Source: Paracyclopina nana
Taxonomy: Eukaryota > Arthropoda > Copepoda > Cyclopoida > Cyclopettidae
Direction: 5' to 3'
DNA: 64,000 nt
Assembly: GCA_019096065.1 (NCBI GenBank)
Contig: JAGUCH010000002.1
Location: 9,746,501 to 9,810,500, forward strand
Under the pieces are notes generated by a model. The model did no database searches. It was not told the DNA's origin and worked only from the letters and a program-made list of their open reading frames with translations. The first letter of the stretch is position 1; each line of letters opens with the position of its first letter. Made by a program: the position numbers and the translations under genes. This document shows positions 1,505-22,558 of this stretch, piece by piece.

Positions 1505-4500
1505 ATGAACATAGTAAGAAGGCTCTTGTCTTCTTCTGGAGGCTCAATCGAGGGCAACGCCGCTGCAGCCTCCGACAGTGGTGACAATGCCTCGGATTTG
1601 GTTGGCAGTGCCTTGCAGCGAAAGGAGTCGACAATCAAGAGTCCAGAGCAGGAGCTGCTCGGGCTAAGTCATTTGAAAAAGTTGCATGTGGACTATACTG
1701 CCAGCAGCCTCCCGCCCAACGAGAAGGAGGACAAGTTGTACGCCATGCTGCCATTATTCTGTAACACGTTTTCTTGCGTCGCTCCCAAGGTTATAAGCGA
1801 GCGGTTCTCCGAGGAAGTCATACCATTCACGCAAGCCACTAGTCGTCTACTTGTCACTGAAGTCCGCCGGCGGGCCAGCAATCAATCCACAGAAGCAGCA
1901 GCCTCTGCCATTGCCTCCTACATGGAAGTTGAAGACGGGGGAGGAGGCAATGGATGGCATCTTTTATCCACTCTCAGCCTTCTAGTGGGGGAAGGAGACT
2001 CCCAGGCCGAGGTCATGACCAATGCTGCCCTCCCCTCGACGCTGGTCAAATGCCTGTATTTATTCTTTGACCTGCCAGAAGTGACTGACCAGCCCGAGTC
2101 GTCTGGCAGCAACTATTCGCCCAAGGAGCGTAGGCTCCTTTTGCAAAAGCTGTTTATTCAAGTTTTGCTGAGGCTGTGCACATATCAACCTGCAGTGGAA
2201 GAGCTGGCCAGAAAAGATGACTTGACGCTCCTCTTTTCGGCTGTCACTTCCGAGTGTCCGCAGCATAATATCATGTGGCGGAAAAGCTCGGCAGACATAT
2301 TACTTACCATATCAAGACATAGCCTCAGCCTTCCAGTTATTTCGTACCTACATGGTAACTATAATAATGGATGATAATTGCTTCTGAAATGTACATTAAC
2401 TCTATGTCTCTTTTCAGCGAAGGGATGCATAAGTCTGTGCGTTGAAAACATGCAGAAAAATTCCAACGTTAGCCCCCTCGAAGTTGTTGAGATGTTTGTG
2501 ACAGTATTCTGCTTCCTGAAGGACTCCTCTACTGAATCGGAGACTCTGCTAGAGGATTTTCGCACTTGTCAAGGCTACATTTTTTTGTCCGAATTTTTGT
2601 TGAGGTGGGCGTAACTAAATCTCCCTCAATGCCGTTCGTTTAATATCACGCGTTCCATATTTTTCTAGGATGGACGACACTGAAGACGAGGAAAGCAAGG
2701 AGGCCATGAGAAACTTGGTACTGCTCATAGCTTCCCTCACCTTCTGTGGCCATGCTGAGCTGAAGCCCCCTCAATCGGTAGGTTCGGCCTCTCTCTACCA
2801 GCTGGACAGCTTCGAGCAGCCCGAGCCCCAGAACAGAGGTTCCACAGTGAGAAATGTGCTTGCCTTTCAAGTCCTGCAGACGGTCTTCCTGAAGTCCAAA
2901 TCAGAGTATTTGGATGCTAGCGTGCTTGATGCTGTGTCAACCATTTATACGGCAGACAACGTCAACTACTTCTTGTTGGAAAGCCTCAGCTTTCTGCCAC
3001 AGTGTGCCGAGAAAATATGCTTCAAGGCACCGAGCGTTCAAGACAAATTTTTCCAGCTAGTCGAGTTTCTAGTCCATCACCTCAAGTATGTTCCTTGCAA
3101 GGAGCTGATTGCCATATCACTGATACTGAAGGCTCAAAACAATCGAGATTGCTGCATGCAGGCCGTCAAGAGCCTCATGTCTATCGTTAAGTTTGACGCC
3201 GTTTTCAAGAATGTGTTCCGAGAAATCGGCATGCTCGAAGCTCTCATTGGTTGCCTCAAATCGTATTCTGATCTTTTGGAGAGCAGCGAAGAAGTTGACG
3301 TGGACTCAGCTACCCTTAAACTTGGAAGATATGTGGCGTCCTTTCTTACGGAGCTGATAGCGAGCAACGGTCAAAATGGGTCCGTGTTCCGCGAATCTGG
3401 GGGCGTTTCAACAGCTGTAGCCCTCGCCAAAACACGAGCTAGCAGAAATGAGGGCATATGTTTACTCCAACATCTAGTGTTGGCCAGCGGAAGCGAGGAT
3501 GACATGACAGTCCTGCTGGAACTTCTCCAGTCTTCTGGCGTGAGTGACTTCGAATCAAGGACAGCCTTCGTTCATGCGTTAGTCTCGTGTCTGAGAGACA
3601 GCCACAAATGTCGCACCATCTTCAGAAAAGCAGGTGGCTTCGTCTACCTCGTCTCCGTTTTGCTCTCTCTCGACAGAAGCCTGGGCTCGCCACCACGACC
3701 TGATTCTGAGCAAGTATTAATGCTCTTAAGAGCTGTCTTCTACTGCCTCACAGTGGCCATGAGGTACGAGCCAGCCAACGCGAGATACTTCCAAGTTGAA
3801 ATTGCCACAGGAAACAACCTGGTGGAGGCCATTCAATTGCTTGGGTGCTTCTCTACTTCCCCTCATCACAGCATACTGCAATCTAATCCGATCTCAACTG
3901 ACAACACTGAATCCCTAGTCGAGCTTTTCAGGCAAGCATTCAGTACGGAACTAAAGGATGCTCTCCTAATTCGAGAAGATATCTTCAAAAGCCATTCCAG
4001 CTTAGACCCACGTCTCTTTTATGCCTGCTTGGTGTTACGAATGCTCTACGACATGGCAATAGATGGATATGAGCGGAATGTCACGATTTCCAATGCAGCC
4101 AAGCTTCAAAGGCAAAGTGAATCTGAAGAAACTAATGAGCACGAAAATGCTAGGAAAAAAGGGGCTCCTTCGCTGAACCTTTATCCGCCTCCTCCTGAGC
4201 CGGTTGTTGTTCACCCTTGCGTTGTCACAGCAATGTTGCATCTTTTGCCCACTCTGAGGACGGAGGATGAAGGCTCGAGCAATGAAATGGACTGCTACTC
4301 TGTAGCGCTTCAAGTTTACATCTCCGAAGTCATTCAGTCACTTCTGAGGACCGAGAAAAATCAGCAAATCATGTGCGATGTTGGGCTGCTCTCTAAAATT
4401 ATGACCATATGCAAGGCTCCGCTGGAAAATGATGGGCACATCTTACATGACCATTTTCAATATCTACTTGAGCGTTTGGCTGCCCAAAAATTGGAAGCTT

Positions 4501-15822: not shown

Positions 15823-17053
15823 CTAAAGCTCCTCCTTTCCAGTGCTCGCATCTTTCAAGCATCTAATAACGAGGCCAGGATCGATGTCGCCCTTCTGATT
15901 GATAAATCTGCCTCCGGTGGTTGTCAAGTCGTCGGGGCATTTCGGAGAGGGCTTCGTCTTGATGTGGTACCACTTTTTGCCGAACCAGTAATTTCCGGGC
16001 GTGGCGTCGTACATGCCTGCTTAGATGCACCGGTCATAAAGCAATCTCACAAAAACTCAAGATACTCGCTTATGATCCAGCAGCCACGGTCTTTGCATTC
16101 CACTTCCGGGTATTCGGGGACCTCGTTGAAGTAATAGTAGAGGAAAACCTTGGGCGGCACCGGTCGCTCTGGCGTCGCCACGAAATTGGAGAGGTTATGC
16201 ACGTAGACTGGGTATCTGCCGGAGATGTCCCCTCTGTTCTCGTACTCGATCCAAGGAAGTTCCTGGAACATGGGTAAATGTACCATACGAGTCCCCCGAC
16301 GCCTCCTCGTCGGAAATGCATTGGCAAATGTCTGCTAATGCACATCGCGCATTCTTCGGCTTGATTCTCACGAAATACTCACTGGGTAAATCGTGAAGAC
16401 GCCCATCATGTCTTGGTACCAGGGATCTCGATTCAGCGTCCCCTCGATTTGCAATTTTTCGCAGCACTTCTGCCTGCTCTCTCCTCCCGCAGCATGAGTC
16501 GGTGTATCTGCAGAATTTTGCTCAAACTCAGTCAACACACACATATAGCGTTGCGGCGTACGTAAAACATGGGCTGCATCTTTTGCGCTAATTCGATCGT
16601 GATGAACTACTCTTGGCTGGTTTTGCGCTTAACTTTGCATTATGGTCGCGCGCAACTACTGTAAAATACGACATGCAGAACTTCTCTAGAACAAAAGTAT
16701 GCTAAACAAGTTGGAAAAGTAGTATCACTAGCAGCAGAAGTAGTGTGACCCTAAATGAGTGGACTGGCTTGTGCATGCATGCTGACAGCTTGCCTTAACT
16801 ACTTTACTCTGTGGAATTTTGCTGCTGCTGCTGTGCTGCTGCTGCAATTCACAGGGCAGTTCCCTTTGGTTTATTTTTCTGCTCCTCGAACTGTAGATTG
16901 CACGTGACTAAAGCTCTGCTGCAATTTAGCCCCCCTTTTAGCATGTAGGACCATCGTCGTCTGTGCAACAGCATCACCTTTTGCCAAGCTGAAGATGAAC
17001 ACGGCCACCAACGCCAGTTTGCTGCCAACGTGAGCCTTTCTCGCCGTTGCCAT
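15823..17053 (-). CDS. Secreted protein of unknown function, 218 residues
   Basis: Reading on the minus strand, the exons are 17053-16978, 16507-16383, 16331-16070 and 16016-15823. Exon 1 encodes a clean signal peptide (MATARKAHVGSKLALVAVFI...). The mature protein starts DTPTHAAGG, then has KCCEKLQIEG, DPWYQDMMGVFTIY, GRYPVYVHNL, FLYYYFNE, CWIIS, NYWFGKKWYH and SPKCPDD. The spacing of aromatic strands, paired cysteines and the W-Y-H/P-x-C-P ending suggests a small disulphide-bonded extracellular beta domain, but I do not recognise the family. Introns 1 and 2 are GT-AG. Intron 3 (16069-16017, 53 nt) works in phase only as GC-AG, with donor GCGAGT. The gene is tail-to-tail with WDFY3 and divergent from the Methuselah-like gene. 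Confidence 0.72.
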
Positions 17054-20000
17054 GATGACTAAGCAATTGAGTGACTACTGATGGAGGCAATGCGCTAAAG
17101 AGGGGCAAAACACATCTGTAGCATTAATAATTGCGCGGGGCGGCCGCATTATCTGGGATTCAATCATCATTTCTTGAGAGGGCCCTTATCATGTGCGAAA
17201 TCGTACCAATGCATCAACCGCATCAATTATGGAGTAAGCCTTAACAGCTCCTGACTGTAAGCCACAAGCAATCCTGATACAAGGTTTCGGATTCGAAAAT
17301 CAGTTTTTTGGCCCAAACCCCTTGCAATAGTGTGAAAAATTGGAAAATTAAGTTTCATGACCACTGGACCACTCTAGGGTGGTCAAGTGGTGCGGTAAGC
17401 AAAATGCTGTTTAGATTAAGGCAAAAATGAATGGGGGCATAGCTGGAGGTGTGGGTATGGCCAGATATCAACTATACCCTAATTATCTAGGCCCTGGGGG
17501 GGTCTCTAGGTGTCAGGGAAAAAAAGTTGAAAAACGTAAACAAACTAGTTGAAAAATGGCCAAAATTCACTTTTTCGGACCCTACTTTGAGGGCATTTTC
17601 CTCCCATGTCAGTGGATGGATTTTTGATTTTTCAACTCTGGATGAAAGTCAAAGATTGGAACTGTCATTACAAAAAAGAAAATTCATTATATGTCTGCAG
17701 ATGGAGCTCCTGGAGCGATTCAAAAATACACATTTTTAACAAAAATGACTTTACAGTAAAACAGATAAAACTGACAAGCGGAAGTGAAGTCAAATACAAA
17801 AATTTTTTTATCATCACAAACATGTCAGTGCACACCCAGAGGCTTGTCCCAAACAAAAAAATTCAGGATATATAGGCCCTGCCCCTGGCCAGGAGCCTGG
17901 GCAGTCCCATTTATTCTCTGCTGTAACAGCTACATAGGCCAACAGGGAGCCCTTGGCTCCCATGTCAGTGGATGAAAGTGTCCTTTTTTGGCCTCCTGAG
18001 GTCTGTGCTGACCTGGAGGCTTGGGCCAAGCAAAAAACTTCAGGGTACATTGGCCCTGGCCAGGAGCCAGGGCGGTACCGTTTATGCTCTACTGCAGCAG
18101 CTTTATAGGCCAACAGGTAGCCCCTGGCTCCCATGTCAGTGGATGAAAGTGTCCTTTTTTGGCCTCCTGAGGTCTGTGCTGACCTGGAGGCTTGGTCCAA
18201 GCAAAAAAATTCAGGGTACATTGGCCCTGGCCTGGAGCCTGGGCGGTACCGGTTATACACTCTGCTGCAGCAGCTACATAGGCCAACAGGGAGCTCCCAT
18301 GTCAGTGGATGAAAGTGTCCTTTTTCAGCCTCCTGAGGTCTGTGCTGACCTGGAGGCTTGGTCCAAGCGACAAAATTCAGGGTACATTGGCCCTGGCCCA
18401 GAGCTGCAGCAGAGTGTATAACCGGTACCGCCCAGGCTCCAGGCCAGGGCCAATGTACCCTGAATTTTTTTGCTTGGACCAAGCCTCCAGGTCAGCACAG
18501 ACCTCAGGAGGCTGAAAAAGGACACTTTCATCCACTGACATGGGTGCCAGGGGCTCCCTGTTGGCCTATGAAGCTGCTGCAGCAGAGTATAACCGGTACC
18601 GCCCTGGCTCCGGGCCAGGGCCAATGTACCCTGAATCATTTTGCTTGGCCCAAGCCTCCAGGTCAGCACAGACCTCAGGAGGCTGAAAAAGGACACTTTC
18701 ATCCACTGACATGGGAGCCAGGGGCTCCCTGTTGGCCTATGTAGCTGCTGCAGCAGAGCATAACCAGTACCGCCCTGGCTCCTGGCCAGGGCCAATGTAC
18801 CCTGAATTTTGTCGCTTGGACCAAGCCTCCAGGTCAGCACAGACCTCAGGAGGCTGAAAAAGGACACTTTCATCCACTGACATGGGAGCTCCCTGTTGGC
18901 CTATGAAGCTGCTGCAGCAGAGTATAACCGGTACCGCCCTGGCTCCGGGCCAGGGCCAATGTACCCTGAATTTTGTCGCCTGGACCAAGCCTCCAGGTCA
19001 GCACAGACCTCAGGAGGCTGAAAAAGGACACTTTCATCCACTGACATGGGAGCTCCCTGTTGGCCTATGAAGCTGCTGCAGCAGAGTATAACCGGTACCG
19101 CCCTGGCTCCGGGCCAGTGTCAGTGGATGAAAGTGTCCTTTTTCAGCCTCCTGAGGTCTGTGCTGACCTGGAGGCTTGGGCCAAGCAAAATGATTCAGGG
19201 TACATTGGCCCTGGCCCGGAGCCAGGGCGGTACCGGTTATACTCTGCTGCAGCAGCTTCATAGGCCAACAGGGAGCCCCTGGCACCCATGTCAGTGGATG
19301 AAAGTGTCCTTTTTCAGCCTCCTGAGGTCTGTGCTGACCTGGAGGCTTGGTCCAAGCAAAAAAATTCAGGGTGCATTGGCCCTGGCCTGGAGCCTGGGCG
19401 GTACCGGTTATACACTCTGCTGCAGCTCTGGGCCAGGGCCAATGTACCCTGAATTTTGTCGCTTGGACCAAGCCTCCAGGTCAGCACAGACCTCAGGAGG
19501 CTGAAAAAGGACACTTTCATCCACTGACATGGGAGCTCCCTGTTGGCCTATGTAGCTGCTGCAGCAGAGTGTATAACCGGTACCGCCCAGGCTCCAGGCC
19601 AGGGCCAATGTACCCTGAATTTTTTTGCTTGGACCAAGCCTCCAGGTCAGCACAGACCTCAGGAGGCCAAAAAAGGACACTTTCATCCACTGACATGGGA
19701 GCCAGGGGCTACCTGTTGGCCTATAAAGCTGCTGCAGTAGAGCATAAACGGTACCGCCCTGGCTCCTGGCCAGGGCCAATGTACCCTGAAGTTTTTTGCT
19801 TGGCCCAAGCCTCCAGGTCAGCACAGACCTCAGGAGGCCAAAAAAGGACACTTTCATCCACTGACATGGGAGCCAAGGGCTCCCTGTTGGCCTATGTAGC
19901 TGTTACAGCAGAGAATAAATGGGACTGCCCAGGCTCCTGGCCAGGGGCAGGGCCTATATATCCTGAATTTTTTTGTTTGGGACAAGCCTCTGGGTGTGCA

Positions 20001-20634
20001 CTGACATGTTTGTGATGATAAAAAAATTTTTGTATTTGACTTCACTTCCGCTTGTCAGTTTTATCTGTTTTACTGATAAGTCATTTTTGTTAAAAATGTG
20101 TATTTTTGAATCGCTCCAGGAGCTCCATCTGCAGACATATAATGAATTTTCTTTTTTGTAATGACAGTTCCAATCTTTGACTTTCATCCAGAGTTGAAAA
20201 ATCAAAAATCCATCCACTGACATGGGAGGAAAATGCCCTCAAAGTAGGGTCCGAAAAAGTGAATTTTGGCCATTTTTCAACTAGTTTGTTTACGTTTTTC
20301 AACTTTTTTTCCCTGACACCTAGAGACCCCCCCAGGGCCTAGATAATTAGGGTATAGTTGATATCTGGCCATACCCACACCTCCAGCTATGCCCCCATTC
20401 ATTTTTGCCTTAATCTAAACAGCATTTTGCTTACCGCACCACTTGACCACCCTAGAGTGGTCCAGTGGTCATGAAACTTAATTTTCCAATTTTTCACACT
20501 ATTGCAAGGGGTTTGGGCCAAAAAACTGATTTTCGAATCCGAAACCTTGTATCAGGATTGCTTGTGGCTTACAGTCAGGAGCTGTTAAATTGGCACTTCC
20601 AAATGCTTAAGTAGGCAGTCTCGATTGAATCGGT
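17054..20634. promoter_or_regulatory. Divergent promoter region split by an insertion
   Basis: The start codons of the secreted-protein gene (-) and the Methuselah-like gene (+) face away from each other across this interval. Without the foldback at 17241-20588 only 187 bp on the left and 46 bp on the right remain, i.e. about 235 bp for both promoters. I cannot point to specific promoter motifs. Divergent transcription is inferred from gene orientation alone. Confidence 0.4.
17241..20588. mobile_element. 3.35-kb foldback element with 1470-bp arms flanked by TTAA
   Basis: Positions 17241-18710 are the reverse complement of 19119-20588. Base pairing at both extremes gives the same coordinate sum (37829), so the arms align end to end, with only scattered differences noticed (for example near 17752 versus 20077). 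A 408-bp loop (18711-19118) separates them. Both ends read TTAACAGCTCCTGACTGTAA, so TTAA may be a piggyBac-type target site or part of the terminus. The outer 640 bp of each arm is unique. Inside are 165-171-bp sub-repeats around GTCAGTGGATGAAAGTGTCC whose orientation flips at about 18405, 19118 and 19424. No transposase is encoded, and long open frames across both strands are repeat artefacts. Confidence 0.93.
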
Positions 20635-22558
20635 ATGGCGAACGGTGGCCGCATTGCCGCCGTTACCATCATCTCCATGATTTGCTTCTGCGGCAATGTG
20701 CCTCGTTGCGGCAGCAACGGAAGCTTGCCGCAAAATGTGTCTGTTGCCAAATGCTGCGCCACGCACGAGGTGTTCAACGAGAAGACCAATCGATGCGAAA
20801 GCGGTGACTTCAACCTGGAAGACTTGATCGTCTACGAGGCGGATTTGACCACGCGAGTTGAGAACCGCCACATCAATTTCGTCACCGGAGCTCTCAAGCC
20901 GGAGGACTGTCCGTCTGGCTACGAGACGAGGTTTTTCAAATATTATCAAAATTGCAAAATACGGACTGTTGCGCAGTTTCTCTTGAGCCGCTCGACGAGA
21001 CACGCTAGTAATGGGGCTATTATTTTTTAAGGTAACGATATGGTAGCACATGCGCGCGAGCCAGCCACTGGCTACAGTTAGCGATGGAATTTTAAGGCCT
21101 GTAAATTTTCCGCCTGACTAGCAATGCTGTGCGCTGAAGATTGCTTGTTGCCGCCCCAGATGAAAAGCTCCTTGCTATCAAACGCATAATCGTGGCAGTG
21201 CCACGTCGCGCGCAACAATAGCAACGTACGTCTTGCTTTCGCTAACAATATGCAGGTGGAACGTCTCGCCTTTCAGGATGCTGATGCCCCCCACCGACCA
21301 GTTTGAGGTGGTGGCCGACGGCCGCCTGCACCACGGCGGCCACTTCTTGGGCCCGTCGCACTACTGCGTGGAAAAATGCCACATGTCTGGCCTGCATGTG
21401 GCCATCGTCTGCGTGGCTCGCGGCCGTTCCTCGCCGTGCTTTTACCGCGATCTGCTCTACACGATCGGGATGTGCGTGTCTGCGCTGGGCCTGGCGTTGA
21501 CGATGGCGGTCTACGCGGCCGTGGCCGAGCTGCGGAATGCACCTGGGAAAAATCTCCTGTGTCTGGCATCGTCCCTCTTGCTGGCCTACGTCGTCTTGGT
21601 GGCCACCAGACTCATGGCAACATCTCGCGAGTGGGTGTGCATGGCGGCAGGCAAGAAGATGCATGCACCAACCATACGCACACCTCGCTCATGCACGATT
21701 GTTTTTTCAGCCCTGCTCATGTACTTCGGGTTCACCTCCTCGTTCGCCTGGTTCACCGTCATCTCCACCGACATCTGGCTCACTTTCGGGTACTTCTTGC
21801 ATGCACGTTGATCTCGCGAAAAAAGCATTGAGACGGGGAAAGTTTGCTGCTGCCGCTGCATGATTTCAACTTAACTGATTTGGCAAGCTAGAGAACGCCC
21901 TACATGCATGGAAGCTGCCAGCCTAGCTAACCTATGATTAAGCAATAGGAAACGCGTTTCCTCCTCCGCCAACGTCATGAGAACGGGCGGCGGCGCCGGG
22001 ACCAGGAACAGGGTCTACATCGCCGCCGGCTGGGGCGGGCCCCTCCTCATGACCCTCGTGGCCTTGGCCGTGGACAGGACGGACTACGAGGGCCTGAGGC
22101 CCAACTTCGGCCTCACGTCCTGCTGGTTCCACGACCCCTGGGCCGTGCTGGCCTACTTCTACGGGCCCATCGGCTGCCTCCTCATGGTCAACTTCGCCCT
22201 CTTCCTCCTGACCACGGTTGAGCTGTGCCGGCTGCAGGCCAGCCTCAAGGCCGGCAAGACCAGGCAGCTGTGGCGGCGGCACAGCAAGAACAAGTGCCAG
22301 GAGAACCTGGACGGCACGCGGCAGCGCCTGGCCCTGCATTTCAAGCTCTTCGTCGTCATGGGCCTGTGCTGGGCCTTCGAGCTGCTCGCGTGGGCCTTTC
22401 CCAGCCCCAGCTGCTGGCCGTGGTACGTGGTCACGGACATGGTGAACGCGCTGCAGGGCCTCTGGATGTTTCTCATCTACGTGGCCAAGGAGGACGTGTG
22501 GAAAAAGTTGCTGGCGAAACTCGGCAGCAGCAACCACGTGGTCCCGGCTGCGGCATGA
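20635..22558 (+). CDS. Methuselah-like class B (secretin-type) GPCR
   Basis: Exons are 20635-20930, 21256-21650, 21711-21789 and 21949-22558, giving 459 residues. A signal peptide (MANGGRIAAVTIISMICFC) leads into a cysteine-rich ectodomain with LPQNVSVAKCC and a later HYCVEKC, as in Methuselah receptors. TM1 begins LLYTIGMCVSALGLAL, followed by TM2 NLLCLASSLLLAYVVL, TM3 ending FAWFTVISTDIW, TM4 VYIAAGWGGPLLMTLV, then TM5-TM7 (MVNFALFLLTTVEL, LFVVMGLCWAFELLAW, GLWMFLIYVAKEDVW). The family is linked in insects to stress, lifespan and peptide signalling; the ligand here is unknown. Intron 2 is GC-AG with donor CAG|GCAAGA, and leaves the frame open if retained. The exact acceptor of exon 4 is uncertain by a few residues. 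The last exon is very GC-rich compared with its neighbours. Confidence 0.88.

Follow-up and report, generated by a model that had tools for sequence, protein, structure and literature searches.

A foldback in the genome of Paracyclopina nana as a probable non-coding member of a TTAA-targeting transposon family

We analysed a 64,000-nucleotide stretch of the genome of the copepod Paracyclopina nana (assembly GCA_019096065.1, contig JAGUCH010000002.1, positions 9,746,501 to 9,810,500; hereafter the window) and, within it, a long foldback at window positions 17241-20588. This foldback is very probably a non-coding, two-arm derivative, moved in trans, of a family of TTAA-targeting DNA transposons whose terminal inverted repeats are Foldback-like and internally repetitive. 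The window feature itself is an old kind of element; the family behind it is a Foldback architecture in a TTAA transposon.

The foldback measures 3,348 bp, its coordinates being exact from the arm alignment, and the element proper with a single TTAA measures 3,344 bp. The arms (17241-18714 and 19114-20588) are 99.73% identical over 1,475 columns, with three mismatches (17752/20077, 17753/20076, and 18456/19373) and one gap; ungapped, they are 1,471 bp each and are separated by a 406-bp spacer. An arm of 1.47 kb at 99.7% identity rules out a chance origin. Tandem units of 171 bp make up the inner ~2 kb; the outermost ~580 bp on either side is non-tandem. The units, forward (F) or reverse (R), follow the order FFF RRRR FF RRR and thus switch orientation three times; no other of the 25 two-armed copies mapped switches more than once. 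The first-pass annotation had reported a near-perfect foldback at these positions, and this stands; it had missed the TTAA target, the 171-bp units, and the full-length coding relative with its fusion-glycoprotein gene. The parts of the element are as follows.

17241..17244, no strand: left TTAA target-site duplication, from which 61 of 63 tip matches align
17245..17824, plus strand: left non-tandem tip, ~580 bp, beginning CAGCTCCTGACTGTAAGCC; inner limit approximate
17601..17618, plus strand: tip motif CTCCCATGTCAGTGGATG, which recurs in the 171-bp units and is a candidate site for transposase binding
17825..18403, plus strand: forward 171-bp units, 3 anchors; limits approximate
18404..19117, minus strand: reverse 171-bp units, 4 anchors; limits approximate
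19118..19426, plus strand: forward 171-bp units, 2 anchors; limits approximate
19427..20004, minus strand: reverse 171-bp units, 3 anchors; limits approximate
20005..20584, minus strand: right non-tandem tip, from the arm alignment and tip comparison
20585..20588, no strand: right TTAA target-site duplication, from the tip matches and the joined-flank search

We then searched the genome itself (92 Mb in 10 contigs). Each search scored a subset of its candidates (40 of 79 for the left arm, 40 of 107 for the tips, 40 of 704 for the joined flanks, and 68 of 381 for the Pfam family PF24664), so that all counts are lower bounds and matches missing from them are no proof of absence. The left arm had at least 386 genome matches, and the tip found at least 40 ends at 99-100%. 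Thirty-six stretches were taken for comparison with the window; in these and the window together, the tip matches that did not align from the terminal TTAA were the eroded ones of L036 and L040, and L037 had no tip match. The two-armed set comprised 25 copies, namely, the window, L009-L030, L033, and a 13.4-kb copy that extends over L031/L032. The counts leave out eleven loci, three with two ends but short arms (L034, L035, and L044, 456-1,167 bp) and eight with one end or none in the stretch (L036-L043). Both ends of all 25 two-armed copies read TTAA followed directly by CAGCTCCTGACTG, and the flanks look unrelated throughout the set. The 24 copies other than the 13.4-kb one are 2,442-5,524 bp long, and the number of unit anchors ranges from 6 to 24 per copy in the whole set, with arrays of varying length. 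The architecture (long inverted arms holding tandem repeats) and the dispersal (scattered copies with variable arrays and independent flanks) are therefore both of the foldback type, and the search for other copies with the same ends, suggested by the first-pass annotation, yielded 24 further two-armed copies in the assembly. L025 contains, at element position 3010, ~712 bp matching neither the tip nor the units, perhaps a nested insertion.

To assess the target site, we built for every one of the 25 copies a 94-bp block, with 45 bp of flank on either side of a single TTAA, and searched for these blocks in the genome, query positions being assigned to copies arithmetically from the block length. 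Uninterrupted matches with a single TTAA across the junction were obtained for four joined sites: L018 (at least 38 matches, up to 97% over 94 bp), L025 (at least 2, 94 and 95%), L020 (at least 1, 95% over 92 bp), and L012 (at least 2, the best 100% over 75 of 94 bp). For the other 21 copies, including that in the window, the matches listed (40 of the 704 candidates scored) contained no uninterrupted site. Since the TTAA is single without the element and double with it, it is the duplicated target. The repeat in which L018 sits, with its at least 38 uninterrupted genome matches, is a second, unnamed dispersed family.

The similarity of the arms was compared within and between copies. For the 560-bp tips the median difference was 0.0018 within copies versus 0.0071 between copies; in one copy, L022, the two arms differ by 0.067. 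A tree built from the 50 tips, which gave 24 distinct rows, did not split into two arm clades; instead, the arms of one copy fell in the same supported group, for example L030/L033/13.4-kb copy (100/99) and window/L009/L023/L029 (95/97). The tree is otherwise mostly weak, as 2 of its 21 inner branches reach such support, and L022_B stands apart. Because the arms of a copy group together, they appear to be homogenised over time, though partly. L018/L020/L021, L024/L026, and L011/L017 retain identical pairs of slightly unlike arms at separate places, which indicates that this homogenisation is not constant. Arms within a copy are alike while subfamilies differ by several percent, which makes arm identity a poor clock. 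The earlier suggestion that the insertion is gene-converted or under correction agrees with this grouping; the term "very recent" holds in part, in that the left tip in the window is identical to one L029 tip, which makes the family young, but cannot be read from arm identity.

Could the near-identity of the arms reflect nothing but a very recent single insertion, so that homogenisation is unneeded? The identity of the left tip in the window to the L029 tip, and the many identical tips among different copies, would fit such an explanation, which we nevertheless consider rather unlikely. Several percent separate the L030/L033/13.4-kb subgroup from that of the window, yet in either case the two arms of a copy group together; separate left-arm and right-arm clades across subfamilies were looked for and not seen, most other forks being weak. 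Moreover, in a second family described below the arms are 99.7% alike while the copies are ~3% apart on the glycoprotein side.

The 13.4-kb copy is the sole full-length copy of the family found. It lies at C2:9462619-9476008 (13,390 bp) and has arms of 2,237 bp at 98.5% identity, with arrays of 9.3 and 15.5 units. Between the arms are minus-strand frames of 429, 297, and 361 aa and a divergent plus-strand frame of 316 aa. The latter, the last exon of a glycoprotein gene, matches PF24664 (Monjiviricetes_fusion) over profile positions 347-635 with 47.1 bits, the cut-off being 27. The minus-strand frames owe the name transposase-like to their position within a TTAA element, their recurrence in the second family with seemingly the same intron positions, and the stretches DWAMK and SDNAG conserved between the two families, motifs and introns being read by eye. 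A DDE-type transposase has catalytic D, D, and D/E residues in an RNase H-like fold, on which these two stretches may bear. A profile of the transposase-like protein was compared with viral contigs using two patterns, and none of the 243 stretches obtained was confirmed. A nested long-terminal-repeat (LTR) retroelement was considered as the carrier of the glycoprotein in the 13.4-kb copy and rejected: a scan with LTR models of part of its frames (4 frames, 3 pieces, and 6 small frames) gave no reverse transcriptase, integrase, or gag match, and both families share the layout.

Traces of such a coding copy persist in the non-coding ones. Of the other 24 two-armed copies, 13 (L010, L012-L015, L018-L022, and L024-L026) contain a relic of 201-204 bp, 93-94.5% identical to the coding copy. 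It spans the final ~60 bp of the glycoprotein frame plus the stretch up to the array, starts at the identical base in all 13, and in protein comparison gave the last 14 matched residues of the glycoprotein. The relics are accounted for by one deletion inside a full-length parent, so that 13 of the 24 copies descend from a glycoprotein-bearing parent. A transposase block was found in none of the 24.

The two genes recur together in a second family. With the 297-aa block as the query, four matches were obtained at three loci: one in the 13.4-kb copy, one at C1:7.403 Mb (51%), and two, with stops, at C2:16.932 Mb (49 and 41%). The 316-aa frame gave six matches, four of them at these three transposase loci, on the opposite strand and 4.0-5.9 kb away, one locus having stops; a glycoprotein match is thus paired with the transposase-like gene at 3 of 3 transposase loci, in two families. 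The element on C1 is ~12.9 kb long, with 1,585-bp arms that are 99.7% alike and 180-bp units, and its relative on C2 is 96.9% identical over 3.97 kb on the glycoprotein side. The glycoprotein of this family matches PF24664 with 56.8 bits (profile positions 345-622). The tips of the second family read CAGCCAGTATTG and, as a query, found 7 matches, 5 of them full. Of five ends seen, four have TTAA as the four bases just outside the tip, and the left end of the C1 copy has ATAA. The units of the two families are ~60% identical over 242-254 columns, and the 32 bp around CTCCCATGTCAGTGGATG are 87.5% alike in the tip of the second family. Among units, conservation was scored in 119 of the 197 distinct ones (at least 85% like the majority) and is biased for CTCCCATGTCAGTGGATG, much of which is covered by the unit-finding anchor; CCTCCTGAGG, outside that anchor, is equally conserved.

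Between the families, the differences by codon position were 0.45/0.31/0.62, 0.38/0.28/0.58, and 0.39/0.28/0.58 for the three transposase-like blocks and 0.49/0.31/0.63 for the last exon of the glycoprotein. The nonsynonymous divergence (dN) was 0.42-0.58 and the synonymous divergence (dS) 2.46, 2.76, or saturated, and dN/dS ratios are approximate since synonymous change is near saturation. On this comparison the transposase-like and glycoprotein genes both show purifying selection and have been kept as proteins. Pieces of the glycoprotein upstream of the last exon fit PF24664 profile positions 79-344 in order, below the cut-off (26.0, 21.1, and 24.5 bits), and 3 of the 6 such pieces had no match. 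We offer tentatively, as a possibility and not the probable case, that a TTAA cut-and-paste lineage keeps a functional fusion glycoprotein of negative-strand-RNA-virus type in its own toolkit, e.g., for exit in vesicles or spread between cells or species, while seeding non-coding foldback copies.

The glycoprotein gene might instead be a mere passenger, derived from a virus or retroelement and caught between the arms, with no role in the transposon. At least 68 PF24664 frames exist elsewhere in the genome, including that of L056, flanked on one side by an integrase-like tail and on the other by a second envelope-like frame (by eye); a 39-aa fragment of the transposon-type glycoprotein at C1:15497740 has no transposase match nearby, the paired locus at C2:16.94 Mb, one of three, has a broken glycoprotein frame, and the glycoproteins of the two families are less alike (43%) than are the transposase-like blocks (49-52%). 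We regard this explanation as unlikely, however, because the same divergent layout is found at all three transposase loci in two families, the last exon has a dN of 0.58 versus a dS of ~2.8 between them, the 13 relic-bearing copies come from a glycoprotein-carrying parent, and the 316-aa frame is only 21% identical to the one other PF24664 frame that it matched, the long one of L054. The PF24664 frames over the cut-off in the genome (68 of 381 candidates scored) are many of them ~815-836 aa long, and the setting of L056 is as in envelope-bearing Gypsy-type elements.

Returning to the reading of the foldback as a two-arm derivative moved in trans, we propose the following course of events. The transposase-like protein would bind the repeated motif CTCCCATGTCAGTGGATG in the tip and the units and cut at TTAA; if the motif is recognised in both, the arrays would be binding-site arrays. 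Loss of the middle would give rise to non-coding copies, and coding and non-coding copies alike would be mobilised in trans by the same protein. The likeness of the arms may be kept by exchange between them, through hairpin-templated repair or gene conversion, and unequal exchange would lengthen and shorten the arrays. The copy in the window would then have landed between two divergent putative gene starts. Several observations speak against parts of this scheme. The transposase-like frames had no Pfam match, and the 297- and 361-aa blocks found nothing convincing in the Protein Data Bank (PDB; best E values 0.62, 0.099, and 1.6), so the transposase role rests on context and motifs. The sole full-length copy belongs to another subgroup, ~6-7% different at the tips, and is therefore not necessarily the mover of the window element. 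The copy in the window lacks the relic, as do L009, L011, L016, L017, L023, L027-L030, and L033, and among the matches listed there was no uninterrupted site for it. Finally, movement is deduced from sequence.

The two flanking genes lie outside the element.

16874..17053, minus strand: putative beginning of the left gene's coding sequence, an open frame of 60 aa with a hydrophobic N-terminus
20635..22558, plus strand: putative secretin-family (7tm_2) receptor gene, with 7tm_2 Pfam matches

The putative starts are based on open frames and, for the right gene, also on 7tm_2 matches in the frames 21164-21811 and 21938-22558; its first frame, 20629-21030, had no Pfam match. The element is 187 bp from the left putative start codon (17053, minus strand) and 46 bp from the right putative ATG (20635-20637, plus strand), the same gaps as originally proposed, and the open frames likewise support the placing of the insertion, a TTAA-flanked member of a dispersed family, between two divergent putative gene starts. 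Without the element the starts would be ~237 bp apart with one TTAA kept, close to the ~235 bp estimated before. The first-pass annotation also held that the element must supply, block, or rewire the promoters; this is too strong, as an upstream exon or a start within the 46 bp may serve instead. That the hairpin is a regulatory element, replacing or silencing the divergent promoter or yielding small RNAs from a long hairpin transcript, is suggested by its position, close to both putative start codons (46 and 187 bp away). This seems quite improbable; with two-armed copies at 24 other places, the element does not depend on this gene pair for its existence. An assembly artefact can be practically dismissed: long palindromes are difficult to assemble, but the arms in the window have three differences and one gap, TTAA stands at both ends, and there are many copies whose flanks and array lengths are different. 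Elsewhere in the assembly, two of three contig ends, L068 (C1:1-300) and L071 (the last 300 bases of C2), are a GGCCT-type 5-bp satellite and not a familiar telomere repeat; the third end differs.

With this family, the Foldback architecture is found in a TTAA-targeting transposon, besides the P-type Galileo and others. Two diverged families hold a transposase-like gene and a virus-type fusion-glycoprotein gene side by side, under purifying selection. This pairing of a transposase-like gene with a fusogen was a surprise and merits follow-up; if the glycoprotein does serve the transposon, it would offer a testable route by which cut-and-paste DNA transposons might spread horizontally, a matter that has long been in question. 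We found no report of a DNA transposon with such a glycoprotein in the literature searched, most subscription journals being outside it. Fusogens have reportedly been described in Maverick elements. Pfam contains a model of the piggyBac transposase, and TTAA duplication is also a property of Sola3, a possible home for the family.

Three superfamilies were considered as a home for the element. piggyBac shares the TTAA duplication, but its tips begin CCYT (PMC10175614), whereas those of both families here begin CAGC, and the frames tested had no Pfam match. Kolobok also duplicates TTAA and in several lineages has an accessory protein beside the transposase (PMC9587614, PMC6004289), as the fusion-glycoprotein gene is here, but its tips are 5'-RR...YY-3' (PMC9587614) and not 5'-CA...TG-3'; the text of that paper mentions neither glycoprotein, envelope, nor foldback. 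The P superfamily has a target duplication of 7-8 bp according to iMITEdb (PMC5199201), in contrast to the 4-bp TTAA. Since these marks (tips, duplication length) fail, we have not filed the family under piggyBac, Kolobok, or P.

Among elements with captured viral genes, Anakin and other retroelements resemble the present families in carrying a chuvirus-type glycoprotein (PMC7642597, PMC10084718), but those named there are LTR elements or unclassified, whereas the glycoprotein here is in a TTAA DNA transposon; the term "DNA transposon" does not occur in the available part of PMC10084718. Teratorn, a piggyBac element fused with a herpesvirus, is likewise a transposon with viral genes, including an envelope glycoprotein (PMC10175614), but measures 180 kb and contains a whole herpesvirus, compared with 13 kb and one recognised virus-type gene here. 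Of the published TTAA transposons with viral genes that we came across, it is the nearest. In architecture, the family is like Galileo, Tetris, and the Foldback elements. Galileo, of the P superfamily in Drosophila, has copies ranging from nearly complete to two-arm only, with exchange among copies (PMC3573991), as in the present family, but its transposase is of P type, whereas the present family has a TTAA duplication and a transposase-like protein without a Pfam match. Tetris, among other Foldback elements, is a non-autonomous foldback whose arms hold ~220-bp tandem repeats (PMC4079207), whereas the family described here has a 171-bp unit, a TTAA target, and a full-length relative.
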